DNA from: Acinetobacter sp. 10FS3-1
GTDB lineage: Bacteria > Pseudomonadota > Gammaproteobacteria > Pseudomonadales > Moraxellaceae
Reading direction: 5' to 3'
DNA: 64,000 nucleotides
NCBI RefSeq assembly: GCF_013343215.1
Contig: NZ_CP039145.1
Location: 11,190-75,189 of the forward strand
Positions 21,201 through 50,580 of the stretch are shown here, piece by piece (the first letter of the stretch is position 1; every line of letters begins with the position of its first letter). The notes under the pieces are model-generated. The model was not told where the DNA came from and did no database searches. It worked only from the letters and a program-made list of their open reading frames with translations. The position numbers and the translations under genes were made by a program.

Positions 21201-21934
21201 TTTTCGACCGAAACACTAAAGGTCTGCTCAGAATCCTCAAACCACTTGTGTGCAGCTTCAGCGGATAGGTTGAGGGCTTGGGAAATCGCGGTTTCGACAT
21301 CATCCTGATAGAACTGATAGCCGTCACGCTCCTCTAGCCAGGACATGCCGCTGGATTCCTCAAACGCCTGTTTAAAGCGTTCGTAGACACCTTTCTGGCT
21401 CAGGTGACGTTCCATATGGGCAATATGTGGATGGTCAGCACTAAAACCCTGATACTCGTTAAATACACGTAAAAACACATTCAGGATCGGATTGCCATCA
21501 TCATTGGAGCTGGCTTTACTGTCGATGTTAAACAGGATGACATCGGCATGATGGCTGACGGCCTTGCTAATATCGGCACGGATAAATGCATCGCGGATTT
21601 TGTTTTCATCAAAGAATTCTGCAGCACTGCGTTCGTTACCTTCCGCATCGCGTGCCACTTTATTGGCCAGAATATAGGACAAGGTTTTCAGGAAGTGTGA
21701 TTTACCTGAACCAAAGAAGCCCGAAATCCATACGCCAACACGATTGGCAATCGAAGGATCGCTTAGGTCTGTGCCATAAGACTGGAAAAAGTCCCGAAAA
21801 TGCTTTTCCAGTTCATTGGTGACCACATACTCATCGAGTTCCTGATAAACCGTGGTATTGTCATTCTGGTCTGCTTTTACGACCCCGTTAATCGCACGAT
21901 CTAATGGCTTGTAAAAAAGTTCTTTAATGTTCAT
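18254..21934 (-). CDS. brxC: BREX ATPase BrxC
   Basis: The P-loop GFFGSGKSHFLK is at about residue 72-83 of this protein, and a Walker B-like MLFLVDEVGQFIG lies near residue 265. At about 1226 residues the length fits BrxC of BREX-1. The C-terminal third holds a coiled-coil-rich region and a Pro/Thr-rich linker (TSSPVTSTPAVSPVQPA). The frame could begin earlier at a TTG, but the ATG ending at 21934 has a GGGGGAG ribosome site nine bases ahead and is preferred. BrxC is a large ATPase required for both restriction and methylation. Confidence 0.95.
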   Translation of the reverse strand: MNIKELFYKPLDRAINGVVKADQNDNTTVYQELDEYVVTNELEKHFRDFFQSYGTDLSDPSIANRVGVWISGFFGSGKSHFLKTLSYILANKVARDAEGNERSAAEFFDENKIRDAFIRADISKAVSHHADVILFNIDSKASSNDDGNPILNVFLRVFNEYQGFSADHPHIAHMERHLSQKGVYERFKQAFEESSGMSWLEERDGYQFYQDDVETAISQALNLSAEAAHKWFEDSEQTFSVSVENFCQWVKEYLDSKGPQQRMLFLVDEVGQFIGSDTRLMLTLQTITENLGTICKGRAWIIVTSQADIDAVLGEMSSSKANDFSKIAGRFKTRLSLSSSNTDEVIQKRLLRKTPEAEALLRSVFEQKGDILKNQITFDRSGPTLKNYEGPDSFIHNYPFAPYHFQLVQKVFEEIRKVGATGAHLAYGERSMLDAFQMAANAIATDEVGALVPFHRFYTSVEGFLDTAVKRTIDQAGQNKTLDGFDVQMLRTLFMIRYVDIIKGTLDNLVTLSIEKIDEDKLALRKRIEESLQRLEKESLITRNGDEFLFLTNEERDITRKIKATDLAASEENKELANLIFKDLLRDQNKYRHQANKMDYQIGRFLDGHSLDGKYESDLKVEIISPLDTEYSLYTEAYCIGKSAEAEGQVLFKLADDKQFFNELRTWLKTNKFIRLNDDGTQSDISRILADRGRENQERKKRLRARVEEMLLDAESYALGQHLQLSSSSPSTKLDEACRYLLENTYTKLSYLQVYQQDAWRELNAVLTVDDMAQLGLSLDGGQSNPKALQDVEQYISLRATGTERILVSDVVDRFAKRPYGWPDAEILLLVGQLAAMGRISLQLNGGSLQLKEAFEPLQNSRRRRDVSIIKKRQTDDQVLKQARQLTQDLFSAMGPATEKELFEFYTQHFKNWLANFKSYKSKTDVGQFPGKKVIEKSILTLERLLANSDSFDFFKAVVENKDDYLDLEEDYRDIHEFFTNQMPSWQQLQQALRHFEKNKQALGSDEVAKKALSELHRIATLESPYGLLNKVADLVRTVEGVNEQLLTEKRNQAIEHLDDKIKQLEAEIKNSGIASAELSNKLLRPLQLLKTDIEVESSLSTIYMLQTQTAVERFDEALYELESEVQAEIQRQAKAAQLAQSKAESVTNTATTSSPVTSTPAVSPVQPATAVVPPKPVVEVDVASIYSKTSSSVYLETEESVDQFVDALKAELKKIVSDKKRVRIR

Positions 21935-21975
21935 CTCAACCAACTCCCCCGAATTTTTATTTCTATTTGCCGTGT

Positions 21976-22551
21976 TTAAGGCACTAATCTGAATGCTCTG
22001 TAGTAATTATTGCTTGGAATTTTTCCAAATAAACTCATCGCTTGACCGTCGTAATAACCTGGGTAAAACAGCACCACTGGCTTATGCCCCAGTAACGAAT
22101 GCAAACTGTTTAATAAGTGATGGGCACGTAACAGTGGCCAAACCGACCCTACCCCAGTCATCAACACAATATCTTGCGCATTGGTGGCATATTTACTCAC
22201 CAGATAGGGCGCGAACTTATCCATATGCAGTGGGCCTTTCAGCGCTTTGAGCAGCGCATCATCGCCTTTGGCTTTTTGCATTTGAATGGCTTTATCGATG
22301 AAGTTACGCTCAGCCAGATAATCCACCACGGCTTGCAGCAGGTTGATATTCACCACCTTCAGCTGACTGTGTTTTTTCTCCAGCATCCCGTCTAGAAAAT
22401 GCAGATATTCGCGCACTTTCAACTCATCTTCAGGTGCATAATCAAAAATCCAGAAGCCAATTTCATTGCCCAGTCCTTGCCCGGTGAGAAACTCGGTGGA
22501 AAGAATTCGCTCTGGAATCTGATTCAGACGCTCATGTATTGCTTGACTCAT
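21976..22551 (-). CDS. brxB: BREX protein BrxB (DUF1788)
   Basis: The 191-residue protein matches the DUF1788 family: IHERLNQIPERILSTEFLTGQGLGNEIGFWIFDY at the N-terminus and a C-terminal HHLLNSLHSLLGHKPVVLFYPG segment. BrxB is one of the small proteins needed for BREX-1 function; its biochemical role is not known from the sequence. It sits between brxA and brxC with short spacers, so it belongs to the same transcript. Confidence 0.93.
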   Translation of the reverse strand: MSQAIHERLNQIPERILSTEFLTGQGLGNEIGFWIFDYAPEDELKVREYLHFLDGMLEKKHSQLKVVNINLLQAVVDYLAERNFIDKAIQMQKAKGDDALLKALKGPLHMDKFAPYLVSKYATNAQDIVLMTGVGSVWPLLRAHHLLNSLHSLLGHKPVVLFYPGYYDGQAMSLFGKIPSNNYYRAFRLVP

Positions 22552-22567
22552 TGCTGCCCCTCTACAA

Positions 22568-23179
22568 CTACCGCGTCCATAGCGACACTTCCATAGATCT
22601 TTTAATGCGTTGTTTATAATGTTCTTCCAACAGGCTACGCAGCTCTGCTCTGACGATCACACGCTGCAACTCCAGCTTACGGGTACTTTTTAAGTAACCG
22701 GCTTCTGCCAGCATGCGAAACACCACCTGCCCCATTTTTTTCTTGCTGGACTCTTTCCATTCACAGATATCCGGATCGCGTTGTGAACGCTCATCCAGAA
22801 AGTCTAACCAGATATAACTATCCAGGTATTGAGCCTGGGAGATATAAGCCTCTCTCATCACCGTTTCCATAAACTCAAGCAGCAACAGGTTGCGTTCCAG
22901 TGCGCCACAAAAAGCCACCTGGGTCGCCAGCTCATCATCCCCATCACGCAAAGCTTTCCAGAAATCAGGCTCTAAGCGCTCCAGACGCTTACGAATAGCG
23001 GTGGCATTGCGTTGAGCTGAAGCAGGCGTTCTTTTTTGCAGAATATTGTCAATCTGAATTGCCTGATACCATTGTTCTGGAGTCGCCTCTCGTAATAACA
23101 GATCCGCGATCAGCCGGCTTTCACGTACCATCAGTGAGCCACCAATTAGGTCACTGTCATAATGAAATTGTTCTAACAT
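22568..23179 (-). CDS. brxA: BREX protein BrxA (DUF1819)
   Basis: The protein (203 residues from the ATG) belongs to the DUF1819 family, with the N-terminal GGSLMVRESRLIADLLL and the central RNLLLLEFMETVMREAY segments. The open frame extends to a TTG at 23206, overlapping brxR, but the ATG ending at 23179 is preceded by AGGAG at seven bases and is the likely start. In known BREX-1 systems BrxA is a small all-helical DNA-binding protein. Confidence 0.93.
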   Translation of the reverse strand: MLEQFHYDSDLIGGSLMVRESRLIADLLLREATPEQWYQAIQIDNILQKRTPASAQRNATAIRKRLERLEPDFWKALRDGDDELATQVAFCGALERNLLLLEFMETVMREAYISQAQYLDSYIWLDFLDERSQRDPDICEWKESSKKKMGQVVFRMLAEAGYLKSTRKLELQRVIVRAELRSLLEEHYKQRIKRSMEVSLWTR

Positions 23180-23189
23180 AGCCAATCTC

Positions 23190-24056
23190 CTATGAAGCTT
23201 GATCAAACAGGTAAGACGACAGCTTTTCGATATCTGAGCGTTGTAGTACCAAGGGATATTTCAAGGCATCATCCGCCTCAGCCAGCGTGATCGCGGCCTG
23301 ATATCGCTGCAAAGTATAGTGAGCCAGGGCTTTTTTCACCGGAATCTGTAATCTGCCATCAGGCATGCCGAAGTCTTTTTCGACCAGCGCTTGTTGTGAT
23401 GAGTTCAATTTTGGATTAGGGATCAGCGTCAGTACAATTTCTTCATGCCATTGCTGATCCTGAGCAGGGTCTACTGACTCAATCGCCACCACAACAGGTG
23501 TGCGATCAATTCTGGAGAGTAAAAAGTCCTTAAACTGCTTGCTCTGATGGCAATAGGCACGGACATGCCAGCGAAAACCGGTATACACCAGGGTGTGTGG
23601 GGAAATGATGCGTTCATGCCACTGCGGATTCTGCATCGAGGCATAAATCATTTTTAAAGTGTTTTGGTTTCGGCAGGCACGCAAAACTTCCCGAATCACT
23701 TCAGGACGTACACTGCGATCAGGTAATTGAACTGCTGTAAGATTCGGTTCTGGCATCGCAATCAGCGCATGCGATTCACTGACCAAACCTGACAGCATGT
23801 TGAGATATTCATTGATATGCGCTGTAGTCAGTACCGGTTGAAAACTGGCTTTAGGCACATAGCCTTTTACCGATGGATCATGAATCAAGGCATCGGGGTT
23901 GTAAAGCGTATTGTAACGCTTGATATCCGCAGAAGCCTGCTGTCGACTCAATCCAAACCAACTCATCAAACGATTGGTAACCAAACGACCTTCCCAGTAT
24001 GCAAGGAGTTCAATGGCTCTCATTCTGAGAAGGACTTCATGCTTATCTGTCGTCAT
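23190..24056 (-). CDS. brxR: WYL-domain regulator BrxR of the BREX operon
   Basis: The protein begins with a winged-helix domain (LLRMRAIELLAYWEGRLVTNRLMSWFGLSRQQASADIKRYN) followed by a WYL domain (NTLKMIYASMQNPQWHERIISPHTLVYTGFRWHVRAYCH). This is the architecture of BrxR, the transcriptional repressor that heads BREX loci in Acinetobacter and other genera. The open frame runs to a TTG at 24071; the ATG ending at 24056 is chosen here, with no strong ribosome site for either. It stops 10 bp before brxA. BrxR proteins bind inverted repeats upstream of the operon, and a candidate pair is described just upstream. Confidence 0.92.
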   Translation of the reverse strand: MTTDKHEVLLRMRAIELLAYWEGRLVTNRLMSWFGLSRQQASADIKRYNTLYNPDALIHDPSVKGYVPKASFQPVLTTAHINEYLNMLSGLVSESHALIAMPEPNLTAVQLPDRSVRPEVIREVLRACRNQNTLKMIYASMQNPQWHERIISPHTLVYTGFRWHVRAYCHQSKQFKDFLLSRIDRTPVVVAIESVDPAQDQQWHEEIVLTLIPNPKLNSSQQALVEKDFGMPDGRLQIPVKKALAHYTLQRYQAAITLAEADDALKYPLVLQRSDIEKLSSYLFDQAS

Positions 24057-24865: not shown

Positions 24866-26098
24866 TTACTTATTTTCAGATAGCAACCAATCGAGAGCAC
24901 TCATTTTTACAATACCATTATAATTTGCTTCAGTCCCTATCGTGTCTAAGGTAAGTAAATATTTGGGATACGAATCAGAAATTTTCTGTAATGGACGTAA
25001 CTCTCGGCTGAGTGTCTCCTCATTGAGCGTTTCTAATGCCACCTGATAATAAGTTAAATTCTGTAAAGTATCGACAGCAACAAAATCAATTTCATATTCA
25101 TCAACCCGCCCTACATAGACCGTATAACCTCGTCTGACAAGCTCAAGATAAATCACATTTTCTAAGATATGACCTTGATCAGCATTAGCATCAGGCAACA
25201 TAATCCGGCGCAATCCGACATCAACTAAATAGTATTTTTCAGAGGATTGTAATAACTCACGCCCGCGTACTTTAAATTGTGCGGCACTATAAAATAACAA
25301 ACTGTCCTGTAAGCCCTGAGTATAGCGTTTTACTGTTTCAAATGAGATTTTAACCCCACTTGAAACAAAGGTATTTTTAATTTTATTGATGGAAATGGGT
25401 GAGCCTGTCACGCTTGCTAAATATCTTGCGACACGCTCGAGAGAGTTAATATCAGCAGTATTCAAACGAGGAATAACATCTTTAAACATTACACTGGCAT
25501 AGACCGCTTGCAAGTAATCATAGGTTTCCTGCTGACTAGTCATGGCAAGCGTATAGGGGAAACTACTGTGCGTGTACATGGCATACAAATCACGATTGGA
25601 TAATTGTTGGATGATCGGATTATTTTCAATATGCCACTGTTTAAACTCTTGGAATGACAAGGGTAAAACATGTTGCTCGATATAGCGTCCTGTGAGTAAC
25701 GTCGCAAGTTCTCCACTCAGAAAGAATGCATTTGAGCCTGTAATATATAAATCGATATAATCCCGAACATATAAAGAGTCGACTACTTTCTCAAAATTTG
25801 TAACATGTTGTATTTCATCTAAAAAAACATAGTTTTTTTTACTTTTATCAACTTTGGACAATACATAATCATGTAGTTTACGGTAATCGGTGAGTTCTTC
25901 AAATTCCATAAATTCGAAGTTGATGGCAATGATGTTTTCGGCTTGTACACCCTGTGCTTTTAGGTCTTGTTGAAACATCGCCAATAAGGTGGATTTTCCA
26001 GAGCGACGCACACCTGAAAGTACTTTAATGACATCACGGTCTTGCCATGTATTCAGAAATTTTAAGTAGCCATCACGTCGAATATTAGCGCTTCTCAT
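24866..26098 (-). CDS. AAA-family ATPase with DUF4143 domain
   Basis: The 410-residue protein opens with an ATPase domain: Walker A LSGVRRSGKSTLLAMF near residue 30 and Walker B NYVFLDEIQHV near residue 93, followed by the sensor segment YITGSNAFFLSGELATLLTGRY. The C-terminal half is a DUF4143/PD-(D/E)XK-like region (YEIDFVAVDTLQNLTYYQVALE). Such ATPases are widespread singletons of uncertain function, often in accessory islands. It is monocistronic on the minus strand, between the two small RNA candidates. A defence role is possible from context only. Confidence 0.85.
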   Translation of the reverse strand: MRSANIRRDGYLKFLNTWQDRDVIKVLSGVRRSGKSTLLAMFQQDLKAQGVQAENIIAINFEFMEFEELTDYRKLHDYVLSKVDKSKKNYVFLDEIQHVTNFEKVVDSLYVRDYIDLYITGSNAFFLSGELATLLTGRYIEQHVLPLSFQEFKQWHIENNPIIQQLSNRDLYAMYTHSSFPYTLAMTSQQETYDYLQAVYASVMFKDVIPRLNTADINSLERVARYLASVTGSPISINKIKNTFVSSGVKISFETVKRYTQGLQDSLLFYSAAQFKVRGRELLQSSEKYYLVDVGLRRIMLPDANADQGHILENVIYLELVRRGYTVYVGRVDEYEIDFVAVDTLQNLTYYQVALETLNEETLSRELRPLQKISDSYPKYLLTLDTIGTEANYNGIVKMSALDWLLSENK

Positions 26099-26649: not shown

Positions 26650-28305
26650 TTAATACAGTAATTCACCAAACAAATCCGCTCTAATCTCTTCCAGACTCAG
26701 ATCTGATTTCATTCTATTACAGATGGGATGAACCAGCAGACCATTCTCTAGAACGCCTTGCCCACCTACGGCTTTGGCAATCCGATGATCCGATTCAGTA
26801 GAATCAAGATAGATCAATCCATCACAAATGAGGCAAAAGTTATGATTACCCACCAGAAAATTGTGCTTAAGCAGACTCTTGGTTAATGCCGAAAAGGCCT
26901 TGGGCTTTGACCGAGAAATTGGACTAATCGACTCCACATATCCCACCACATGCTTGACGACTGCATCATCATAACCACCCAAAAATCTTTCGACATAAAA
27001 CTCGTTAAAGTTTATGTACTTGAAGGCCTTAGACATGGACAGAATAAAGGTATTCAGGCATTCCTCATCATCAAAATCAACTTCCATTTCCAAGCTTAAG
27101 CAAATAAAGGCTTTATAGACAATTTGTAGCCGATCATAGCCCTTGATACCACTGCCGAACTTGCCGACCGTTTCAGTGGTCGCCACGGGGAAATTAGCAA
27201 TCAAGAACTCAATACTACGGCGTACCCGGGTGAAGTCTTTGAAACTAATCGTTCGATGATGAATCTGCATGAGGCTTTCATGAATTTCATACACAATTGA
27301 AAACCATGCAAGAAAAGAAGTAATCTGAAAACGCTGGTCCTTATAAAAATATAAGTATGGATGAAAGCCCAAACTCGGAACCCCAGTATTTTTTACAGGC
27401 GTCGCTATTCTGCAAAGAATGGTCAACAGATGCGACATCAGGTTTTCAACGCGTTCCCCCTGATTCAGACTCATAATATTATGAATCTGATCACCAGCAA
27501 TGATATTCATCAACTCATTGACCAAGCCAATTTTTTTGCCATGACTCATTTCATTGTCTAATAAAATGGTCGAAAAAAGGAGCTGGTGGATCCTCTCCCC
27601 TAACTCAATCAGCTCATTTAAACGTGTATATTGGAGCTCTTCCAAGTTAGATTTATTGTCATTGATATAACAACAGGCATAGATCGCATAATAGGCGTCA
27701 CTCCCGCGACTTCTGAGATGATATTCCTCATATTTATCTAGACGTTTAGTATCTGAGTTAATCGATTGAAATACCCGTCGCGCATCTTCCGGAGTTCCCA
27801 GTACCTGCCTGAAACTGATTTTAATATCGCCTAATTTCGATTTTTTTTCTGCGAATTCGGCATCAGTACAAATTTTTTGAAAATCAGCAAGATCTCCTAA
27901 ATAATTGCGGAGGTAACGAATATCTTGTTTTTGTTGATCATTGAAATTAGGTGCTTGAGGGACTTGCTCATCCGCAAAATATCTATTGATCCATGCATAA
28001 ATACAGGAAAGACGATGTGCCCCATCAATAATGTAAATATTGCCGTGTATATCTTTCCAATACAAAATGCATAAATTGATGTTTTGATCTTCTGTGCAAT
28101 CCTCAATAAAGTTTGCAATTTCTTGCACGCTCCAACATTCCGTAGAACGCTGGTTATCCGCTTTAAATAGACATTTGATGATTGGATGCTTTTCAAAATC
28201 AGTCAGTGCAACTTCAAAATTGTCACGCTGCATTGAAGGTGACATTTCTTCTGGCAACATGACTTTACGCTGAATAATATTGGTCAATAGTCGTGTAGAA
28301 CCCAT
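26650..28305 (-). CDS. DUF262 plus HNH putative nuclease (GmrSD-like)
   Basis: The 551-residue protein has an N-terminal DUF262/ParB-like domain, marked by IYIIDGAHRLSCIYAWINRYF near residue 95 and by FRQVLGTPEDARRVFQSINSD. Its C-terminus holds an HNH-type motif: CLICDG, SDHRIAKAVGGQG and HPICNRMKSD. This architecture is that of GmrS-D and related modification-dependent restriction proteins, and it fits a defence cargo gene. The ATG has GGAG nine bases ahead. It is a single transcription unit between the ATPase gene and the recombinase trio. Enzymatic activity is inferred from the motifs. Confidence 0.8.
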   Translation of the reverse strand: MGSTRLLTNIIQRKVMLPEEMSPSMQRDNFEVALTDFEKHPIIKCLFKADNQRSTECWSVQEIANFIEDCTEDQNINLCILYWKDIHGNIYIIDGAHRLSCIYAWINRYFADEQVPQAPNFNDQQKQDIRYLRNYLGDLADFQKICTDAEFAEKKSKLGDIKISFRQVLGTPEDARRVFQSINSDTKRLDKYEEYHLRSRGSDAYYAIYACCYINDNKSNLEELQYTRLNELIELGERIHQLLFSTILLDNEMSHGKKIGLVNELMNIIAGDQIHNIMSLNQGERVENLMSHLLTILCRIATPVKNTGVPSLGFHPYLYFYKDQRFQITSFLAWFSIVYEIHESLMQIHHRTISFKDFTRVRRSIEFLIANFPVATTETVGKFGSGIKGYDRLQIVYKAFICLSLEMEVDFDDEECLNTFILSMSKAFKYINFNEFYVERFLGGYDDAVVKHVVGYVESISPISRSKPKAFSALTKSLLKHNFLVGNHNFCLICDGLIYLDSTESDHRIAKAVGGQGVLENGLLVHPICNRMKSDLSLEEIRADLFGELLY

Positions 28306-28501: not shown

Positions 28502-28697
28502 TTTGCCAACATCTTTTCCACGAGATGGTGGCAAACCAAATAGGGGTGGAAATACCGCTCAACGAAACGGCCAGTCATAGACTGCCCTACTTGGCCTGCC
28601 ATAAAGCATTGCCATGCAGACACAAAAGAGCCACTAGAAGTGACTCTTTAGTACGTTGAGATGCGGGTTTCCACGCCCGATTACAGATTTTGCTGTA
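28502..28697 (+). ncRNA. Multi-hairpin non-coding region, candidate structured RNA
   Basis: No gene covers this stretch, yet it folds densely. TTTGCCAACATCT pairs with AGATGGTGGCAAA (28502-28535, one mismatch), AAAGAGCCACT with AGTGACTCTTT (28625-28649), CGGG with CCCG (28664-28679) and TTACAG with CTGTAA (28681-28697). It is more GC-rich than the DNA on both sides. I do not recognise the family; a regulatory or antisense RNA, or a recombination site of the neighbouring trio, are options. Confidence 0.4.
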
Positions 28698-28967
28698 ACG
28701 TAATTATCATATGGGTATCTTTTTCTTTGGTCAAACCAAATTAGAGTTTTTTATTCATTTTTTAGTGATATTTTAAAATTGAATGCTGGCTTAATTTTTT
28801 CAAAATTTTAGCCGAAAAAATCCCTGTATTTTACCTACATACAAGGATCCGTGTTTAGCTCAAAATCTATGCTGCATACTTATAGAAGGATTACCTAAGC
28901 TAATTAATTTATCTTCTCCATTTTTTGGTATCTCATTAAAATCTAAAAATAATCATATTGGTGGACT

Positions 28968-29024: not shown

Positions 29025-29625
29025 TCTGAAATATATTTGCTTAGGCTATTTAAAAATTAGCTTATAAAATCAAACCAAAAACACAACCCAGTTTTCTATG
29101 CTGTATTTAATATTATAAATCTAGCAAAATTAATTTTTTTATTTATAAAAAATAAAAACTAATTTCCCTATTTTACAGAATAAAACAAATCAATTTATAG
29201 GGTAAATAATTTATATTAACTCACTAGTCTATAAAATTTACCTTATATAATTTTATATTTTATAGATTAAATTTAAAAAATAATATCCGAATAAATTTAC
29301 AAGAATAATAAAAAAATACAATTAAATTTAATCTTATTTTCTCCTGCGAGTCATACAAAATCTTTTTGTTTATTGAGTATTTTTTTTGATAATCTCTCAT
29401 CTAGCCTATCCAGGCTATTCTCAAGAAAAAAATTATCAAAAATCAACCTCACAGAGTGTACACCTCGCGCTTAGTGTCCTTTTTTGACCAAAAAAAAAAG
29501 AAGAAATTTACATAAATAATGAAATAATAATCAAACATGAATTACCTAAAGTTATATACCGATGTTTTTTATATATTTTTTTAATATAAAAAAACTGTAG
29601 CCCCCTACTTCTTCGGTAAAACATT
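29018..29625. other. Very AT-rich region downstream of the recombinase trio
   Basis: No gene is seen. It contains an inverted repeat TTTTTGATAAT (29383-29393) and ATTATCAAAAA (29432-29442) enclosing a small TAGCC/GGCTA stem, a possible terminator or recombination site. The rest is simple AT-rich DNA. Confidence 0.4.
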
Positions 29626-32600
29626 TTAGACCATTTTCTTTTGACCCAGGGAAGGTACTCCAAGGCATTTCATCTTAAAAAAGATACTTTGTAGTACAAT
29701 TTTTTGTATCAGATGATGCTTTGAATCTGCTTTTTTATTACTAATTTTATAATATTTTATTTTAACTTCAGTCCCTATTTTTTTATCAAAATCACTTGAA
29801 CTTGATTTTTCTATATCTAAGTAGGATTCTACGTCCGAATATATTTTGGTAATAAACTCTACAAATGAATCGTACAATTTTAAATCTTTTTGACAGACTG
29901 CTTCAAAAACTAAAACTGATCGATCATTTTTCAATGAAATTTTATTTTCCAAAATATAATAAAAATTTTTAATTTCTTTTGGGGTAATTTCTTTGTCAAT
30001 TATGAATGGCTGGCATATTCCATATAAATACGACCAATTGATCATTCGCTCCCAATTTAAATCCATTTCTTGCAGATCACGCTCCTCACTTCTAGCTATT
30101 TCTTTATCTTTATAAATATAAAATTGTCTACTAATTGACTTTATTAAGTTAACAAGCTGGTCTTCAGGATTTATGATCCGGTCATTTGATTTCCATTCCT
30201 GATATGATTCTAGAAATCTTTTTGGATATAAAAAACTCATTTGTTTTTTTTCAATTTCATCTTTTTTTAAGAATTGCTTTGGATCATTATGTTTTTCAAA
30301 AACCTTTAAAAAAAACTTAGATTTTTGAAGAATGTTAAAAGCTGATTCATCCTCAGATATCTTTAAGGATTTAAATTGAGCATTAATAATTTTGCTATTT
30401 TTTAGTAATGCACCAATCAATTCAGGCTGATATTTACGTTTTGCTGTATAAAACATGTCTGCAATTAAAATATTAAGATGATGTATATAGCTACTTGCGG
30501 TCACGTTAAAGTCTTCATGCCCCATTAGATGTGCTAAACGTTGCCATACATCTGCGCTATGTAATGATGCATGATCGATATTTTGCAATATATGCTTTTT
30601 AAGCCTACCTACAAACCTAGAGTCATAGTCAGTAAAACTACAGATAAGCTGGTGGCTGCCTTTCAATAAAATTGCTAAGTGTGATGCAGCACTATGCCTA
30701 AATGCGTGAAATGTATATGAATGATCACTTGTCCCTAATACCAAATTAAACAAGCTCCTAGTGATTTTTGATAATTGTTGATTTTCAAAGGTGAAGAGTA
30801 ATGTATTCTGTACTTGTAATTCCGCTTCGCTCAAAGAAGCAGCTAAATATTTTTTATAAAAATCACAGAACTCTTTAAATTCATTTGGATTTAAAAAATA
30901 GGATAAATCAAACTGACGATTTGCATTTTCGTTTTTAACATTACGGTGAGAGTTGGAATGAATTTTTAAAACCAGATTTTCAATATCTGAATTGGATGAT
31001 TCATTTGAAGTTGTATCTTTAGGATCTGACTTTGCTTCGTAATATAAACGATTATTTTTAAGATGACTTCGAAGCTGTGCAGAGTCAAAATCATTGAGAC
31101 GGATGCCTGTCACTTCATCAATACGCAAACCTAGTCTAAATGCGAGTCGATAGACCCATTGCAATGCAACTATGTCATTCCCTGAAATGCCTAAAATGTT
31201 TGGATAATTTTCCACAATTTTCATCATTAATTCAAACATCTGCGGACTAATGGTCCGTGTTTTTAAAAATTTCCCGCTGTCTCTCTGATGTTCATACAAG
31301 TACGCTACTACTGGTGCATCATGCTTGTTGACCAAATACTGATGAAATGTTTTTAACCTCGCGAAAGAATAGCCAGAGGTGTCGTGCTTTTTATTATCAT
31401 TTTTCTCAGCGATTGTTTCCTGCTTTTCCTGATCTTTCATTGATTTTTCTAAAATAAGGTACTCATACATTTCTTCAAATTGTTCTTCGATGGCATTATT
31501 CAAATTTATTTGATATTCTAAAATGTAAATTAAAAAGTCAGAAACGAAGCTGTGATAATAACGTTTTATCGATGCCACCTGAAGTGATGCTTTACCAGAG
31601 CTAGAATTGTAACCTAGCTCATACTTTAACCATTGGCATATCCGTAAATGTGCGATTGCCACCACATAATCAATATATTCCCCCTCTCCAGCTTCATAGG
31701 AACGTATATCGCCCTCTGATTTATTAATACTCGCGTTCAAAGCTTCATTAAACTTGGCTAGTGTCAACTCTTTACCATCTTCACTAAATGATAAAAGCAA
31801 TGATTTTATATCATTACGTTTACCCATCCGTTTATCATTATAAACTTTAACGTTCTGACCACTAGTAGAAACAGAAAGCTCCACAGTGTCATGAGTATTT
31901 TCAATTCTTTCTTGAATCGTTTTCCAGGTATCAAGCTGATGATAAATAGCTATATGCTGTTCATATATCAAAGGCGTAGTGATAATTTTGTTATTAAGTA
32001 CACTTGTACTCAATAGATCTAAATTTGGAATCTCCTGCCAAAGAACATAATCAATATGCTTGAAAGCAGAAAAACGACGTCGCCCAAACTCTTTGATAAA
32101 TTGATGATCAGGAACAACATCTTTAAAATGTGCTTTTAGCCGCTTATAAAGTAAATCTTCCCGCTTAACTTTTTGATCTTGATCATCGTGTGTTTGCTGC
32201 CAAATACTAAGAGGCGATGTAAACTGTAATGCATAACCTTGGTTACCATGAAGATGCTCTCGGATACGCAAATAACAAAGCATTGAGATTGCGTTAAAAT
32301 ATATTTGCTGTGTTTGCCATAATTCCACATCTCCTTGGCTATCATAACGGTAGAAATTGCCATATTTTTGAGATGAGAGAGTGTATGAGAAAACGTAGGC
32401 ATGATTCTCTGAACCAGAGTAAATTGGCAACAGTCCACTGTCTAGATTCATTTCAAAAATTGCATCATGAATTGCAATAAGCCGTTCAGGATGAATACAT
32501 CCTTGATCGAAAATTAATGATATACATAGACATTCAAATAATATGTTTACTAGGTTTTGCTGAGCTTCAACTGTAGATTGTAAACTTATATTTTGAGTCT

Positions 32601-33081
32601 TTTTATTAAGAGAATAGCTCCACTTTTCATAAAATTTTTCTTTAAAATCAGCAAGAATAGCTCCATAACACAACTTGTCCTCTGTTAAAATATTATCGCG
32701 GCGCGGTAATGTTGCTATTTTCCAATCTGGTAATTTAATATCGTAAATTTTTGCATGATCTGGATTTTTTTTTTGCCACTCCTGATACTCTTGTTCACAA
32801 ATAATTTTAAAGTGTTTAAAACACTCCTTGAGGTAAGAGCGGAAATATTTTTTGAGCTGGGAATGCTCACAAACTTTTATTAAAACTTGCTGATAGTTTG
32901 TAAATTTATCAGCAATTCGTTGATCAAGAAGTTTAAAATCAATCTCGACACCATTCACCTTTTTCTGAGTATATTTATGATCAATCAGCTCAGAAATTTG
33001 ATTAAAAATTGCTTTTGTTTCTGTTTCAATCGCATTTTGTAATTGCTCTAGAATCTCTTGATTTAGTTCTTTGTTAATCAC
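29626..33081 (-). CDS. Very large tyrosine-recombinase-like protein (trio gene 3)
   Basis: The 1151-residue protein has a tyrosine-recombinase catalytic domain in its second half: Arg in LGLRIDEVTGIRL near residue 652, HAFRHSAASHLA near 792, LMGHEDF near 848 and the putative nucleophile in ASSYIHHL near 864. About 600 residues precede this and about 290 follow, far beyond the 300-400 residues of ordinary integrases. It starts with GTG, and that GTG overlaps the end of the upstream gene by 8 bp (GTGATTAA), indicating translational coupling. The organisation resembles the tyrosine-recombinase member of gamma-mobile-trio elements, but that is a hypothesis. Confidence 0.75.
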   Translation of the reverse strand: MINKELNQEILEQLQNAIETETKAIFNQISELIDHKYTQKKVNGVEIDFKLLDQRIADKFTNYQQVLIKVCEHSQLKKYFRSYLKECFKHFKIICEQEYQEWQKKNPDHAKIYDIKLPDWKIATLPRRDNILTEDKLCYGAILADFKEKFYEKWSYSLNKKTQNISLQSTVEAQQNLVNILFECLCISLIFDQGCIHPERLIAIHDAIFEMNLDSGLLPIYSGSENHAYVFSYTLSSQKYGNFYRYDSQGDVELWQTQQIYFNAISMLCYLRIREHLHGNQGYALQFTSPLSIWQQTHDDQDQKVKREDLLYKRLKAHFKDVVPDHQFIKEFGRRRFSAFKHIDYVLWQEIPNLDLLSTSVLNNKIITTPLIYEQHIAIYHQLDTWKTIQERIENTHDTVELSVSTSGQNVKVYNDKRMGKRNDIKSLLLSFSEDGKELTLAKFNEALNASINKSEGDIRSYEAGEGEYIDYVVAIAHLRICQWLKYELGYNSSSGKASLQVASIKRYYHSFVSDFLIYILEYQINLNNAIEEQFEEMYEYLILEKSMKDQEKQETIAEKNDNKKHDTSGYSFARLKTFHQYLVNKHDAPVVAYLYEHQRDSGKFLKTRTISPQMFELMMKIVENYPNILGISGNDIVALQWVYRLAFRLGLRIDEVTGIRLNDFDSAQLRSHLKNNRLYYEAKSDPKDTTSNESSNSDIENLVLKIHSNSHRNVKNENANRQFDLSYFLNPNEFKEFCDFYKKYLAASLSEAELQVQNTLLFTFENQQLSKITRSLFNLVLGTSDHSYTFHAFRHSAASHLAILLKGSHQLICSFTDYDSRFVGRLKKHILQNIDHASLHSADVWQRLAHLMGHEDFNVTASSYIHHLNILIADMFYTAKRKYQPELIGALLKNSKIINAQFKSLKISEDESAFNILQKSKFFLKVFEKHNDPKQFLKKDEIEKKQMSFLYPKRFLESYQEWKSNDRIINPEDQLVNLIKSISRQFYIYKDKEIARSEERDLQEMDLNWERMINWSYLYGICQPFIIDKEITPKEIKNFYYILENKISLKNDRSVLVFEAVCQKDLKLYDSFVEFITKIYSDVESYLDIEKSSSSDFDKKIGTEVKIKYYKISNKKADSKHHLIQKIVLQSIFFKMKCLGVPSLGQKKMV

Positions 33082-35440
33082 GCGATTTTTCCTGGGTAAA
33101 CAAGTCTAGCTCCAAAATTTCTAATTTTTTCAGTAACGCTTCAACCTGTTGTTGAATTTCTGTTTTGTAATGAAAAGGACTTAAGGATGAAGTATGGCCA
33201 AACCCCATGGCAATACCATCATGTGCATAAAGGGTATTATGAATATCACTGCTGAGTTCAAGATGGTTTTTGCTAAAATGCCTTGGCCAGTTTTTATAAA
33301 TCTGAACTGTTTCTTTCAAGTAATGCGTCACAAAAGCTGCTGACATTGGTGCCAAAGTAAGATTGTCTGCTATTTCTATAAAGTCAACGCTATGCTTTTT
33401 GGAAGTCAGTTGAGGATGGATAAGAATACACAGCATGAATTCATTTTTTTTCCACTGCTCCTGCAGATATTTCATGCCTAATGCAGTAATTGTCTTATCT
33501 ATATACTCTCTGTATGCATCGAAATGCTTTTGCCAATAACCTACTACAGGCACTAAACGACCTTCTTGTCGTGAACCAATTTTTTTGTCATGAATATAGA
33601 TAAATTTTGATTTTGAATCATAATTTTTGATCAAACCTGGCATACCCATCGTGGGTCGTACCGTGAGGCAAATTAAAGACAGATGCCACATCCAAATGCT
33701 ATAAGCATTTAATTTCTCAATCCGATTGGCTTCATCATTCGTTAAAGTAGTCTGTACATAAGCATAAAGATTTTTAAAAAATTGAGTTGCTGCTTTGATA
33801 GTCCAGCAACGCTGACTACCTATACGTTGTTCTCGGTCAAAGATATAACCCGGCTGCTGCTCTTTTATCCATAGATCACCTTTTTTTCGGTTTATTAAAC
33901 AATCAATGTATCTTTTAAAATGTCTATTTATCTCTTCAATATTACGCCCTTCATAGGACCAATTAACCACATGATTCGTATCGTGATTTGCCATTAAGTG
34001 TGCTACGAGATCATCACCTGTCTGCATATTCAGATGGAAATATATTTGCTTTTCTAAAATTCCACATGAAATCTTGTCCAAATTATACGGTCTGAATAGC
34101 TGCCTTAAAAAACGATTGTATTCAGGAACAGATAGTTCTTGAATAGCATTTTTTTTTAATTGAATAATCCAAGCACTAGGAATATGCCATTTATAAGTGG
34201 ATGCTTTGTTATAGCGCTGTAATTTATCACTCATAATGCCCGAATGATTTACATTCAACTTTGGATCAATCACCCAATAATAAGATACTTCGATTACTTC
34301 TGTTTCTTCTGCTACTTTTGTTTTTTTTATTCTTTTTACTTTTGTTTTTTCTAATATTTTTCCTTTTTCAATCAAATTATTAATATCTTTAAAGATAGTA
34401 GGACTCAGACCAGTCAGCAGTGACATCATGCCACATAATGCCAAAGAAGATTGATCATAAAAGATTGTACTATTTTCTTTGAACATTTTATCCTGATAAC
34501 AATCGTGCAATACGTTGTATACCTGATGTAATAAACTGGGTGCTAGATAAAGTGGATTACTTACAAATGGGACTTCACGTCTCTGAATAATTTTTTTGAG
34601 CTTTTCATCGGATATCATAGAACTTGCACGCTTACTGATATCATCATGTGTAGGATCAAGAATAGTTGCTGATTTTTCATCTATCTCGACTTCTGTGTCA
34701 TCATTTTCTATATGAATAGGAGATGACCCTGAGTGGTTTGTTACATCAATCTCCTTTTTTATTCTTTTTATCAAATCCTTGATACTAAGTTTCTTCGATG
34801 AATTTAATTCCCTGTTGTTAAGCTCATTACAGACAATACAAAATTGCTCAATGTAACGGTTTAAATCTAATGAGATGGAGTGATTTTGCATCTCTTTACC
34901 AGTTAAAAATTCTTTAAAATTGCTGGTGTTAAATTCATCGATTTTTTTAATTTCATTGGTAATTTTGTCACATGGTATTTTTTTTTCCCCACGGTCTTTA
35001 AATTGGTTCTGCAGTAACAGTTTTAATGCATAACATAGTTGATTAAATTTCTTATGTACTCTTTCATCATCTACTATTCGCTTAAAATCTATCAGTTTTG
35101 TGTTTGTGATAGGCTCTTTATCTTTAGAACTAGAATTCGGTAAACTGATAAGTTCTTTGAGCATTTCACAAATTAATCCAGTCAACAGATAACCATACTG
35201 ATGCCCTTCTTGTTCAATTTTAGTCCATTGAGTTAAACCAGCCAGAATTTTATGTTCCGTCACAATTCTCTTTTTTTTAATAGTAACCTGGATTTTTTCT
35301 GCAGCAGCATACAACTCATTCTTATTTTGAACGTCGAAATCTTTGAAAATAGCTTTTTTTTCACCAAGTGACTGATTTACCCACTTTTCCAATACTTTGA
35401 TTTCTTCGTGTAGATCTGACAATCCATCAGTATTAGTCAT
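33074..35440 (-). CDS. Large protein with a degenerate tyrosine-recombinase-like C-terminus (trio gene 2)
   Basis: The 788-residue protein begins with a Lys/Glu-rich helical region. In its last third are spaced motifs resembling a tyrosine recombinase: Arg in LTVRPTMGMPGLI near residue 594, WPRHFSKNHLELSS near 720, MGFGHTSSLSPFHY near 747-757 with a terminal tyrosine. The second conserved arginine is not obvious, so it may be a non-catalytic partner. It starts 4 bp after trio gene 1 and overlaps trio gene 3, so all three genes are one operon. I do not recognise the family with certainty. Confidence 0.65.
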   Translation of the reverse strand: MTNTDGLSDLHEEIKVLEKWVNQSLGEKKAIFKDFDVQNKNELYAAAEKIQVTIKKKRIVTEHKILAGLTQWTKIEQEGHQYGYLLTGLICEMLKELISLPNSSSKDKEPITNTKLIDFKRIVDDERVHKKFNQLCYALKLLLQNQFKDRGEKKIPCDKITNEIKKIDEFNTSNFKEFLTGKEMQNHSISLDLNRYIEQFCIVCNELNNRELNSSKKLSIKDLIKRIKKEIDVTNHSGSSPIHIENDDTEVEIDEKSATILDPTHDDISKRASSMISDEKLKKIIQRREVPFVSNPLYLAPSLLHQVYNVLHDCYQDKMFKENSTIFYDQSSLALCGMMSLLTGLSPTIFKDINNLIEKGKILEKTKVKRIKKTKVAEETEVIEVSYYWVIDPKLNVNHSGIMSDKLQRYNKASTYKWHIPSAWIIQLKKNAIQELSVPEYNRFLRQLFRPYNLDKISCGILEKQIYFHLNMQTGDDLVAHLMANHDTNHVVNWSYEGRNIEEINRHFKRYIDCLINRKKGDLWIKEQQPGYIFDREQRIGSQRCWTIKAATQFFKNLYAYVQTTLTNDEANRIEKLNAYSIWMWHLSLICLTVRPTMGMPGLIKNYDSKSKFIYIHDKKIGSRQEGRLVPVVGYWQKHFDAYREYIDKTITALGMKYLQEQWKKNEFMLCILIHPQLTSKKHSVDFIEIADNLTLAPMSAAFVTHYLKETVQIYKNWPRHFSKNHLELSSDIHNTLYAHDGIAMGFGHTSSLSPFHYKTEIQQQVEALLKKLEILELDLFTQEKSRD

Positions 35441-35444
35441 ACAG

Positions 35445-35939
35445 TTACCATAATTTTTCAGGGTAAAAATTGATTTTCAGCTTTCGTTCTAACTTGAGCT
35501 TGAAGTTTTTAGGCAAACCAAAATATTTTTTATAAGTTCTTTGAGTCAATTTTTTAACACAACGCTGCGGTTTTGACTCCACTCTCATATGTTCTGATAA
35601 CTTCAGACTTAAGGCCTCGGACAATTGAGTAAAAAAACAAGTAAATAGCACAGCATGCACCTCTTTATGTTGGTGCTTTTTAACCTCTTCAGTTTCTTCA
35701 GGAGCTACATCAATTGTATCGAGTAACCACTTTAAAATTTCAAATTCATCAACGTCTTGATTGTCTTTTGCTGCCTGGTCAAGCATTCTTTTGATTTCAT
35801 CATCCATCTTATTTTTAAGATCCAATACAAAATCTTGAATAAAGTCTGGTAAATCTAATATCAAAACGTAACTTAACTTGGTGAAAACTTCAGTTAGAAC
35901 TTCAGGTGTTTTTTTTGTATGCCCAATTTTTTCTATCAT
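35445..35939 (-). CDS. Small unknown protein of the recombinase trio (trio gene 1)
   Basis: The 164-residue, mostly helical protein has no motif I can name; it is acidic in the middle and basic at the C-terminus (KLERKLKINFYPEKLW). GAGAGAG precedes the ATG. Its stop is 4 bp ahead of the next gene's ATG, so it is translated together with the two large recombinase-like proteins and probably works with them, for example as an accessory DNA-binding subunit. Confidence 0.6.
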   Translation of the reverse strand: MIEKIGHTKKTPEVLTEVFTKLSYVLILDLPDFIQDFVLDLKNKMDDEIKRMLDQAAKDNQDVDEFEILKWLLDTIDVAPEETEEVKKHQHKEVHAVLFTCFFTQLSEALSLKLSEHMRVESKPQRCVKKLTQRTYKKYFGLPKNFKLKLERKLKINFYPEKLW

Positions 35940-36098
35940 GACTCTCTCAATCGATACTGGCTATACAAGCTCAATACAGTTGAAATGGTTAATTTCTAAA
36001 TTTACTACTTAGGCCCAACAGAATATCTTTAGCCTAAAAATACCGATTATGATGTTATATGTTTATATCCAGCTAACACAGAACAGCTCAATGAGTTA

Positions 36099-36114: not shown

Positions 36115-36210
36115 AATAACTTTACCATTTGATTTTCCAATATCAAAGTATCGCGATGTCTATATAAGGTTTATCAACAAATCAAAATATTTAAATTATT
36201 TGCCAGTAAA

Positions 36211-36258
36211 GTTATGAAGTTATGAAGTTATGAAGTTATGAAGTTATGAAGTTATGAA
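36211..36258. repeat. Six tandem copies of GTTATGAA
   Basis: The 8-bp unit is repeated six times without change just downstream of the partition genes. Its AAGTTATG core also occurs upstream of parA and in the long repeats at 39511-41100, which suggests a shared DNA-binding protein. Confidence 0.75.
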
Positions 36259-36307
36259 GTTAGGTTATTTAATCTTATAGATTGAATAACCTCTTCCATT
36301 CTCTATT

Positions 36308-36607
36308 TTATTTAAAACTTTTATCAACGAGCTGCTTAAAATCTTCTAAATTCTGCTCTGCCAGTGACTCTAAAGCTATTCTTACAATACTAGATCTGTT
36401 AACACGAGCGTTATTACTTTTGATAATTAACTCATCAATTAATTCACTTAATTCTTGGTTCAAAGAAAAGGTACAACGAACGAATTTCTTTTGTGAAACT
36501 TCTAGATCCTTAACTCTTTTATCAGCTCCAGATATGAAATTTTCAACCAGTTTATCCTGATCTGAAAGCTCGTCAGTTTTCTTTTTTAAACCGCTAAGAC
36601 CTGCCAT
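36308..36607 (-). CDS. Ribbon-helix-helix partition protein (ParB-type partner)
   Basis: The 99-residue protein has a charged N-terminus (GLSGLKKKTDELSDQDKLVENF) and a C-terminal ribbon-helix-helix: RCTFSLNQELSELIDELII is the strand and first helix, and NRSSIVRIALESLAEQ the second helix. It lies 2 bp downstream of parA on the same strand, with AGGAG before its ATG. That position and fold fit the small centromere-binding partner of type Ib partition systems. It probably recognises the AAGTTATG-type sites found on both sides. Confidence 0.75.
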   Translation of the reverse strand: MAGLSGLKKKTDELSDQDKLVENFISGADKRVKDLEVSQKKFVRCTFSLNQELSELIDELIIKSNNARVNRSSIVRIALESLAEQNLEDFKQLVDKSFK

Positions 36608-36609
36608 AG

Positions 36610-37248
36610 TTATACTCCTAAAAACTCTTGAGCTATCCCTTCAATTTCTGCTTTTGCCTTAGGATCACTTGTTACTTCAAAAACAGATAAGCCATTTTCA
36701 TCTGCATCATCATAAACATTTCGATTTGTCGTGATGTGGTCTAATGCTTTTATTCCGAACGATACACAGGCTTCTTTAGCATCTAAAATTCGCTGTACTT
36801 GTGACGGTAATGTTGGGCATTGTGTAATGATTGCTCTTGCATTCAAATCTGGATTCACTGCTCGTGCCAGTTTTAATACTTGTTCCATATGATCCAAAGT
36901 CTTTAGATCTCTACGTTTAGGCCTAAAAGGCAAGAGCATATGTGTTGCTATAGTCATAGCAGAACGTAATGCTTCCGAATCTTGTCCACCAGCATCAATG
37001 ATAATATCTTCATATCTTTTTGATAAATCTTTTAAAACTTGACGAATATTGCCTGAAGCTTGTACAGATGGAATATTTTTTAAATCCTCATTCTCATCAC
37101 GTTCTTTAATCCAGTCAGTTGTTGTGCCTTGAGGATCTGCATCTAGAAGCAGAATATCTCTATTCTTTTCTTGTAAATAAACTGCTAAGTTTTGGGCAAG
37201 GCAGCTTTTACCAGCTCCGCCTTTTTCACCACCTACTAAAATAATCAT
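36610..37248 (-). CDS. parA: ParA-type partition ATPase
   Basis: The 212-residue protein has the deviant Walker A motif GGEKGGAGKSCLAQNLA at the very N-terminus and LLLDADPQGTTTDW as the A' motif; DIIIDAGGQDSEALRSA supplies Walker B. The short length and lack of an N-terminal DNA-binding domain fit the type Ib class. With the ribbon-helix-helix gene behind it, it forms a plasmid segregation module adjacent to the origin, on the opposite strand to rep. Confidence 0.92.
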   Translation of the reverse strand: MIILVGGEKGGAGKSCLAQNLAVYLQEKNRDILLLDADPQGTTTDWIKERDENEDLKNIPSVQASGNIRQVLKDLSKRYEDIIIDAGGQDSEALRSAMTIATHMLLPFRPKRRDLKTLDHMEQVLKLARAVNPDLNARAIITQCPTLPSQVQRILDAKEACVSFGIKALDHITTNRNVYDDADENGLSVFEVTSDPKAKAEIEGIAQEFLGV

Positions 37249-37275
37249 AAGTTATGTAAGTTACGTAATTTTGTT
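37249..37275. promoter_or_regulatory. Partition-type motif upstream of parA
   Basis: ATAAGTTATGTAAGTTACGTAA lies directly ahead of the parA start. The same words (AAGTTACATAAGTTATGTAACTT) form a palindromic core in each of the nine long repeats at 39511-41100. This suggests that the same protein regulates parA and binds the repeats. Confidence 0.55.
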
Positions 37276-37339
37276 GAAAATAATGTACAAGTTTCAATCT
37301 CATGAATCAACTATTGTGAAAAATAAAGTTAAAAAAAAG

Positions 37340-37443
37340 TTATCCACAAGTAATGTTCTTTTTTAATTTTATATATATTTTATAAATTTATATTTATAGA
37401 ACCTCTGAATGCCTTATGAAGTCTAGTTTTCAGAGGTTTTATA
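37340..37443. other. DnaA box and AT-rich segment of the replication origin
   Basis: TTATCCACA at 37340-37348 is a consensus DnaA box. It is followed by an almost pure A/T stretch (about 37350-37400) that could unwind, and then by the iterons. This is the standard order of an iteron-type plasmid origin. Confidence 0.75.
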
Positions 37444-37574
37444 TGGACGTTTTCCTGACAATAAGTGGACACTTTCCTTTATTTAAATGGACGTTTTCCT
37501 GACAATAAGTGGACGTTTTCCTTTATTTAAATGGACGTTTTCCTTTATTTAATGGACGTTTTCCTGGCATAAAT
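37444..37574 (+). repeat. Six iterons of the plasmid origin
   Basis: TGGACGTTTTCCT (once TGGACACTTTCCT) recurs at 37444, 37466, 37488, 37510, 37532 and 37553, at a spacing of 22 bp (the last 21 bp). The second half of the unit alternates between GACAATAAG and TTATTTAAA. These are binding sites for the Rep protein encoded just downstream. Confidence 0.9.
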
Positions 37575-37581
37575 AGATCTT

Positions 37582-37618
37582 CCATTAATGGACATTAAGT
37601 GTTAATGTCTATTAATGG
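37582..37618. promoter_or_regulatory. Inverted repeat ahead of rep (probable autoregulation site)
   Basis: CCATTAATGGACATTAA (37582-37598) and TTAATGTCTATTAATGG (37602-37618) form 17-bp arms with one mismatch around three bases. It lies between the iterons and the rep start and carries GGAC words like the iterons. Rep dimers commonly bind such a site to repress their own gene. Confidence 0.7.
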
Positions 37619-37640
37619 AATTTATTTCTTTAATCACAAT

Positions 37641-38588
37641 ATGGCAAATCTAATTTATAAAGACAATAACTTGATTGAAGCATCTTATGCATTGACTCTG
37701 TCTGAACAACGCTTAATTTTAGTTGCAATTATTGCAGCTAGGGAAATTGAAAAAGAGCTTACATCGGATACATTGCTAACAATACATGCGTCTGAATACA
37801 TGAAGCACTTTAATTTGGGTCGTCAAGCGGCCTATGAGGCTCTTCAGGGAGCGTGTGATAACTTATTTGAACGTAGACTCACCTATAAGGCCATAGATCC
37901 TGTTACAGGTAAGCCAGCGGTCTACAAAAGCCGTTGGGTATCAAAAGTTGGCTATGTTAAAGAAGCTGCATGTGCTCAACTAATTTTTGCTCCTGATATT
38001 TTACAGCTTTTTGTAAAACTTGAAGAAAAGTTTACTCGTTATGAATTAAAGCAAATTTCTCAATTATCTAGTGTATACGCTATACGGCTGTATGAACTTT
38101 TGATTAGATGGCGTAGCAAAGGCAAGCTATATATTAGTATGGTTGAATTGCGTGATAAGTTAGGTCTACTTGAAAATGAATATAAAACCATGGGAGATTT
38201 CAAAAAGCGTGTATTGACGGTTGCCATAGATCAAATTAATAAACTTACTGATATCGACGTAAGTTATGAGCAGAAAAAAGAAGGGAGAACAATTACACAT
38301 ATCGAATTTTCTTTTAATCAAAAAGCTTCCTTAATTGTTAGTGATAAGGTACTGGAACCTGCATATCAGCTGACACCAAAACAATCTATATTTTTCGCTC
38401 AAAAATTGTGTGACCTTATCAAATATCCCGAATTCGGGGGGAAATATGCCAATGTAGGCGAAGAGATCGAAGCGTTTAAAGAAAGGATTTCACTTGAACT
38501 CCTCGACCCTGAAAAGGTAAAAAAGTATTATTCTGATTTGTTAAAAGTGGGCTATAAAGAAAAATATAAATCAGAAAAGTTATCATAA
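37641..38588 (+). CDS. repB: Rep_3/RepB-family replication initiator
   Basis: The protein (315 residues from the chosen start) has the paired winged helices of the Rep_3 superfamily: NLIEASYALTLSEQRLILVAIIA at the N-terminus, SSVYAIRLYELLIRWRSKGK in the middle, and a second winged helix towards LTDIDVSYEQKKEGRTITHIEFSF. These match Acinetobacter plasmid RepB proteins. The frame is open from 37599, but that codon is inside the inverted repeat, so the ATG at 37641 (MANLIYKDNN) is taken. It binds the iterons and starts replication. It indicates that the window is part of a plasmid. Confidence 0.92.
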   Translation: MANLIYKDNNLIEASYALTLSEQRLILVAIIAAREIEKELTSDTLLTIHASEYMKHFNLGRQAAYEALQGACDNLFERRLTYKAIDPVTGKPAVYKSRWVSKVGYVKEAACAQLIFAPDILQLFVKLEEKFTRYELKQISQLSSVYAIRLYELLIRWRSKGKLYISMVELRDKLGLLENEYKTMGDFKKRVLTVAIDQINKLTDIDVSYEQKKEGRTITHIEFSFNQKASLIVSDKVLEPAYQLTPKQSIFFAQKLCDLIKYPEFGGKYANVGEEIEAFKERISLELLDPEKVKKYYSDLLKVGYKEKYKSEKLS

Positions 38589-39485: not shown

Positions 39486-39510
39486 TAGTTTTATAAACTG
39501 AAAATTATAT

Positions 39511-49472: not shown

Positions 49473-49500
49473 AATTCATATAACGTGTATTATGTTAATT
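49473..49500 (+). other. pdif site A (XerC/XerD recombination site)
   Basis: AATTCATATAA, six bases, TTATGTTAATT matches the Acinetobacter plasmid pdif layout: an 11-bp XerC arm, a 6-bp spacer and an 11-bp XerD arm. The orientation is XerC to XerD on the plus strand. Confidence 0.8.
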
Positions 49501-49527
49501 TTAGGAAAATTAAAGGATTCTTAGATC

Positions 49528-49920: not shown

Positions 49921-49935
49921 GTTATATATTGAATC

Positions 49936-49963
49936 AATTAACATAATGGTTGTTATGCGAAGT
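49936..49963 (-). other. pdif site B (XerD/XerC, inverted)
   Basis: AATTAACATAA, TGGTTG, TTATGCGAAGT is the complement of a pdif site, facing the opposite way to sites A and C. It forms the border shared by two adjacent cassettes. Confidence 0.85.
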
Positions 49964-49968
49964 CGACT

Positions 49969-49989: not shown

Positions 49990-50020
49990 CTATTCCTAGT
50001 ACATTAAACACTTGGGAAAT

Positions 50021-50579: not shown

Positions 50580-50580
50580 A

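Follow-up and report, generated by a model that had tools for sequence, protein, structure and literature searches.

What do three tightly coupled genes, two of which encode very large tyrosine-recombinase-like proteins, do beside a block of defence genes on an Acinetobacter plasmid? The genes lie in a 64,000-nucleotide stretch of Acinetobacter sp. 10FS3-1 (NZ_CP039145.1, positions 11,190 to 75,189), here called the window, which corresponds to C3:11190-75189 of a 3.65 Mb genome in 13 contigs (G000). The contig is a plasmid carrying RepM and a ParA-family ATPase at 36610-38588, RepM being identified by NF038290 with 379 bits in a family-model scan of the window proteins. An earlier sequence-only reading took the three genes, hereafter the trio, to be the mobility module of a defence island. 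Our analysis makes it probable that the trio is a recombination operon and makes up the 5' end of integrative, transposon-like elements, which form a family in Acinetobacter. In the open-licence literature, judged by titles and abstract openings, we found no publication describing this three-gene module.

The coupling described in the sequence-only reading is confirmed at 29626-35939, where the genes are co-directional on the minus strand: a small gene of 164 codons without a known domain (35445..35939), a middle gene of 788 codons (33074..35440) and a large gene of 1151 codons (29626..33081), separated by a 4-bp gap and an 8-bp overlap, respectively. Relatives were collected by scanning GTDB genome contigs with an alignment of the large protein, giving 38 genome loci covered up to 10 kb each, and plasmids were surveyed in PLSDB, with a set of 14 trio-bearing plasmid loci that is skewed to the close relatives of the window. 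A match to the middle protein lies upstream of the large gene on the same strand in all 38 genome loci, although a few of these middle genes are broken or cut off by contig ends, and the spacing between the two genes is −41 to +30 bp in 34 loci. The small protein is matched in 29 of the 38. Under a stricter script that allows at most 60 bp to the middle gene, 34 loci pass and the small gene is placed in 26. Homologues of the genes thus do travel together, and their conserved arrangement indicates that the three are one unit.

The large protein is a tyrosine recombinase with N- and C-terminal extensions, in which the full catalytic set (R653, K716, H792xxR795, H855, Y865), noticed in part before, is borne out as R-K-HxxR-H-Y, invariant in 25 of 25 sequences. 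The middle protein has a C-terminal tyrosine-recombinase fold with R595, K619, N717xxR720, H740 and Y758, the pattern being R-K-NxxR-H-Y and the tyrosine present in 21 of 22 sequences. It had been called degenerate; the first histidine is indeed replaced by asparagine, but R, K, R, H and Y are retained, so that by its residues it appears altered rather than obviously dead. In both proteins the motifs fall inside the structural catalytic core, the catalytic fold being complete in the 1151-residue protein and carrying the one replacement in the 788-residue protein. When the middle model was searched with Foldseek, no hit reached E≤0.001, although the 26 best rows are all tyrosine recombinases, and the fold assignment rests on separate evidence. 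Comparison of the middle and large profiles gave E 0.031 and a probability of 1.6, so common descent of the two is not established by sequence. The small protein matches no Pfam or NCBIfam family above cut-off and no PADLOC family at E≤0.01. Searches for homologous proteins returned only near relatives, 46–99% identical (38 and 19 proteins).

Comparison of loci indicates that the module has a precise 5' end, seen in several contexts. In the C4-type subfamily the end is marked by ATAACAGAAAACTAAAAA, which precedes the small gene by about 165 bp and, across 25 loci, abuts nine flank types (the commonest flank being counted together with two diverged versions of it, and the row for L029 being a second, partial copy of the end), and megablast extents pile up at the same position. 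A cation transporter and an IS66 transposase, both truncated, are among the flanks. In the lineage of the window the 5' repeat is TTAGGCCCAACAGAATATCTTTAGCCTAA at 36009-36037 on the plus strand, a 29-bp inverted repeat of the form TTAGGC-N17-GCCTAA, which we propose as the core site of the recombinase and the end of the element. The sequence common to the window and other contexts stops at 36038-36040. A half-identical sister lineage has TTAGGCTCAACAGAATCTGTTAAGCCTAA, a near-perfect palindrome, as its 5' repeat. Beyond the repeat there is RHH/ParA DNA in the window, L017, L018, L020 and L023, about seven bases followed by an IS3 element in L021 and L022, and the last portion of a rep gene in L025, L026 and contig C5 of the genome studied here. 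That rep gene is intact in CP084302, and the junction is precise to a few bases, with GCCTAAAAA on the element side and GGCAGATCATG on the rep side. Two repeat sites were found in L025, whereas none of 100 shuffles contained two. In a subfamily found on chromosomes, a 5' end at L100:7481 also looked sharp, but L231, L235 and L236 share sequence upstream of that point and the end is thus partly a product of insertion sequences.

At the other side of the module, a conserved 3' end is recognisable by alignment in this chromosomal subfamily. Loci G003 and G146 have a stretch of 8.26 kb in common (91%) but differ in their flanks; the final 200 bp of that stretch are still 75% alike in G035, which is without the genes, presumably HipBA-like, that come after the trio in the other two. 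Six independent 3' junctions were seen: four of them cross CCTTGCCAAGG into the 3' half of a sequence that resembles tRNA-Gly, and the remaining two enter other sequence. The C4-type subfamily has few flank types on its 3' side, the commonest leading to S24 peptidase and Y-family polymerase genes. In L025 and C5 a second inverted repeat lies about 120 bp downstream of the large gene. It could be the far end of a unit consisting of the trio only, but none of the contexts listed has its breakpoint at that very position (CP098792 and CP098796 come nearest, starting about 60 bp outside), and at the equivalent place in the window the inverted-repeat script reported no second repeat.

Several observations weigh against an element that inserts at this 5' end. 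No occupied and empty pair with both flanks was found, so the comparison of replicons that had been proposed for defining the ends and empty target of the island located the 5' end but did not show an empty target for the window copy. The window repeat is weak evidence by itself, because its pattern, with at most one mismatch, is expected 0.17 times per shuffled window and occurs in 17 of 100 shuffles. The first half of the cation transporter occurs nowhere on the 66.8-kb contig G096:C2; of the 2601-bp IS66 tnpC query, the initial 983 bp are absent from the 79 kb examined at G099:C8; and contig G000:C5 lacks the 5' half of rep throughout. With these target halves missing, some junctions could be deletion endpoints. 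CP119252 (L149), which has the commonest C4-type flank and no trio, was rejected as an empty site because its flank gives way to an IS66-type element about 12 bp before reaching the boundary. Insertion sequences also create some of the apparent boundaries; L022, for instance, has ISAcsp5 next to the 5' end, and L021 has a remnant of it. Finally, a conserved 3' end was found only in the chromosomal subfamily and not for the window copy. The one-ended junctions would be either deletions that followed insertion or products of a recombination that joins distant DNA in a one-ended way.

Plasmids sharing the backbone of the window were also considered. The plasmid genes that abut the 5' end (RHH gene and ParA on the minus strand, RepM on the plus strand, 36308..38588) occur in other plasmids, L077-L082, without the trio at this place, but these share the backbone only from 36132, 36209 or 36251, and they are not clean empty sites because the shared part starts beside insertion sequences or unrelated DNA. 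Some RepM plasmids without a trio here, such as CP119225, carry one elsewhere. In L076 (NZ_CP096123.1) the same RepM/ParA/RHH backbone is joined, almost at the base where the trio meets it (window position 36024), to a different recombinase cluster, with an annotated tyrosine recombinase gene of 5055 bp and genes of 672 and 486 bp; in the examined part of this cluster the trio profiles found nothing at E≤10.

Another explanation is that the trio is a resident system of plasmid backbones, serving for instance to resolve dimers or to fuse and split plasmids, and that its flanks vary through a reshuffling of plasmids by insertion sequences and by deletions that end at the module. In the window and in L025/L026 the trio does adjoin genes for partition or replication, and several 5' junctions are one-ended. 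In addition, a tyrosine recombinase, tyr13, is one of four core genes of GR13 Acinetobacter plasmids according to the available text of PMC9455709, and the GR13 plasmid pDETAB13 carries a version of the trio (465/2343/3201 bp) plus an integrase gene of 1200 bp. As both are present, tyr13 may be either the large gene of the trio or the integrase gene; that text treats one gene and not a trio, and it may already have named the large gene of one trio subfamily. We nevertheless regard a backbone function as unlikely, since the same terminal base is found at nine flank types, unlike random deletions, full trios also occur on large chromosomal contigs, and the chromosomal subfamily has a conserved 3' end.

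Relatives of the trio are found by sequence searching on hundreds of Acinetobacter plasmids and also on chromosomes, and they are rare in other Gammaproteobacteria. The large and middle proteins are matched in 255 and 251 PLSDB records, respectively, all from Acinetobacter, and megablast with a 9-kb region containing the trio and flanks of one subfamily hit 245 records, 161 of which match at least 80% of its length at a single location. Matches, some to the catalytic part only, are present in 64 of 149 sampled Acinetobacter genomes, compared with six of 369 sampled gammaproteobacterial genomes, the window's own genome among them. That genome has further copies on C4, on C5 and at about 134 kb on the chromosome, plus a broken copy at about 1.88 Mb. 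In four distant gammaproteobacterial relatives a middle-sized gene precedes the large gene, and in three of these, which belong to other families, a small gene comes first, giving the three-gene layout with an integrase-like gene nearby. Around chromosomal trios in G114, G096, G107, G022 and contig C1 of the genome studied here, two further features recur: a divergent gene of about 300 codons (MGRRARGILEYAKTITWYD...) upstream of several trios (at 1.89 Mb on C1), and three small genes downstream of some.

The presence of integrases in such surroundings raises the question of whether an ordinary integrase nearby moves the genomic islands, with the trio simply as their passenger. A further difficulty for an autonomous element is that several chromosomal trios do lie in islands with an ordinary integrase, which is possibly the real mover. 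Integrase-like genes of 399–419 codons, recognised by eye, are near the trio in G050, G107 and G080, another with a PF00589 match is about 8.5 kb from the trio on contig C4, and others are close by in L225-L227, where the family model confirms L225 only. On the window's contig C3 the PF00589 search gave no match, with a sensitivity limited to the extent that it also missed the large gene of the trio. The recurrent 5' end is located at the trio and not at an integrase, and we consider it quite improbable that the trio is only carried along. Mobility by XerCD at pdif sites was likewise rejected, as the nearest pdif-like site, at 49473, is more than 13 kb from the trio.

With the trio as the recombination operon of an integrative element, the following model can be drawn. 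The element would start at a short core site about 70–165 bp upstream of the small gene (36009-36040 in the window). The large protein would be the main catalyst, cutting and joining strands via Y865. The other tyrosine recombinase, the altered middle protein, would occupy the partner half-site and may itself carry out one strand exchange, with the small protein as an accessory factor. A circular intermediate would be formed. Variable cargo would follow the large gene, in the window probably the DUF262-HNH gene, the ATPase and BREX. Directly visible in the sequence are the conserved operon, the catalytic fold and residues, the sharp 5' end in several contexts and the conserved 3' end in one chromosomal subfamily.

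The candidate cargo is encoded on the minus strand and comprises a DUF262 (GmrSD_N)-HNH gene (26650..28305), an AAA_14/DUF4143 ATPase gene (24866..26098) assigned to the PADLOC candidate system PDC-S01, and brxC, brxB and brxA of BREX (18254..23206), with pglX and pglZ at 12003-18207 assigned by position and by the annotation of closely related plasmids. The DUF262-HNH gene is the recurrent neighbour, present in 11 of the 14 plasmid loci and four of the 38 genome loci; because of the skew of the plasmid set, its link with the trio is strong within the lineage and modest across the family. Homologues of brxC occur in four of the 14 plasmid loci and two of the 38 genome loci, and the ATPase has a homologue in two of the 38. 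In lineages that have about 65% DNA identity to one another in the trio genes, the HNH block is 87–98% identical, so that cargo and module have been exchanged. That the sequence-only reading placed a mobility module beside BREX, DUF262-HNH and ATPase genes is supported, as a recombinase-based module distinct from single integrases and from recombinase-in-trio (RIT) elements. Location among BREX, PDC-S01 and DUF262-HNH genes could also mean that the trio is itself a defence system, with recombinase folds that process foreign DNA. It has, however, element-like ends and no PADLOC model hit at E≤0.01, and few copies are near defence genes of the window type (four of 38 for HNH and two of 38 for the ATPase, other defence genes not being searched), which leaves a defence role scarcely credible.

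Some features of the surrounding DNA deserve description in their own right. The leader of the DUF262-HNH gene contains a C4 antisense RNA and an isrK RNA (28524..28712, minus strand; Rfam RF01695 with 61.3 bits and RF01394 with 56.5 bits, both above the gathering score), together with a sub-threshold c4-a1b1 target, which would be a phage-type antisense control before a candidate defence nuclease. L023 (NZ_CP032284.1) has an insertion of 10 kb, containing IS30 copies and blaNDM-1, immediately beyond the stop codon of the large gene, at the equivalent of window positions 29622-29624, and a 3-bp duplication appears to accompany it; on this one plasmid blaNDM-1 lies about 1.2 kb away from the large gene and arrived via a separate transposon. 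Repeats near the backbone genes include 8-bp AAGTTATG repeats at 36209-36262, which differ in copy number among plasmids, 22-bp repeats before repM (37444-37566) and a 191-bp direct repeat of 7.4 copies with 98% matches (39497-40916). An open reading frame (ORF) for an IS3-type transposase at 41671-42756 has its C-terminal part present twice (DQGSQFTS... is repeated), as if two insertion sequences were fused, and next to the window, still on its plasmid contig, there is an ORF of 2812 codons (G000:C3:2750-11188). Scanning the window with the pdif consensus gave five pdif-like XerC/XerD sites with at most three mismatches (49473, 49936, 50581, 59833 and 60822); dif modules are thus probably present in the right part of the window (49473-60849).

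How does the trio relate to described multi-recombinase systems? The sequence-only reading had placed it in the gamma-mobile-trio (GMT) class, and family models together with profile comparison indicate that this is wrong: the trio is not a GMT. The three proteins gave no hit to GmtX (NF040692), GmtY (NF040693) or GmtZ (NF047926) at E≤1, with just two unrelated weak hits, a threshold to be read with the fact that HMMER filters discard most matches above E of about 0.1. At a true GMT locus, L224, the same models score 211, 508 and 765 bits. Using hhalign against L224, the middle protein matched GmtZ at E 0.25, and the large protein matched GmtZ at E 0.66 and GmtY at E 0.13 (the small protein being outside this comparison), whereas the same profile method gave E 6e-5 with a single distant trio member. 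Both systems are three-gene operons, but the genes of L224 encode 441, 908 and 200 residues in order, compared with 164, 788 and 1151 here. A second resemblance is the cargo, GMT elements reportedly carrying defence or offence genes.

Parallels in organisation are offered by GInt elements (Tn6571 family), which, in the accessible text of PMC5385486, have an operon at the 5' end, then cargo, and a short 3' end, and which carry defence systems in E. coli (PMC5385486 and, in its available part, PMC10121019). The trio too appears to be a recombinase operon that marks a 5' end with probable cargo downstream, the end lying at the operon in two subfamilies and a conserved 3' end being found in the chromosomal subfamily only. 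GInt elements have four genes (ginABCD), three of them integrase-like, in contrast to the three genes and two very large recombinases here, and the four-gene layout was not found, as the upstream neighbour of the small gene lies across the element end. Strand-biased circularizing integrative elements (SEs), with the core intA, tfp, intB and srap in the available sections of PMC10214605, resemble the trio in having several proteins of tyrosine recombinase fold including a large one, short terminal inverted repeats, a target preference and occurrence in Gammaproteobacteria. As described in those sections, they differ by an ordinary-sized IntA in first position and four core genes, where the trio operon is without an ordinary-sized recombinase or a fourth gene, and by a Tfp without the catalytic motif, where the middle protein retains R-K-R-H-Y. 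SEs are defined by inverted repeats with a 6-bp spacer at the joined ends and by strand-biased circularisation; the trio has its 29-bp inverted repeat at the 5' end. RIT elements and Tn554 (TnpA, TnpB, TnpC) share with it multiple tyrosine recombinases acting together, but the three recombinases of RIT have 315–410 residues in that part of PMC10214605, compared with 164, 788 and 1151 here. We class the trio among the multi-recombinase integrative elements, as a putative new variant that is set apart from GInt, SE and RIT by gene number, order or size as these have been described.

A bolder proposal, which we put forward tentatively and think doubtful, is that the trio defines a separate class of tyrosine-recombinase elements, found mostly in Acinetobacter. 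Two giant recombinases, one of them half-altered, would act on palindromic sites at the ends and would move or rearrange DNA in a one-ended or copy-out manner. If true, this would account for a fixed 5' end without an empty site, for repeated replicon fusion and for the pickup of defence cargo. The available text of an E. coli study calls the movement of defence islands without known mobility genes unresolved (PMC10121019). The trio, a module that is widespread in Acinetobacter, would provide a defined set of enzymes, an end site and named plasmids with which such island movement can be tested.

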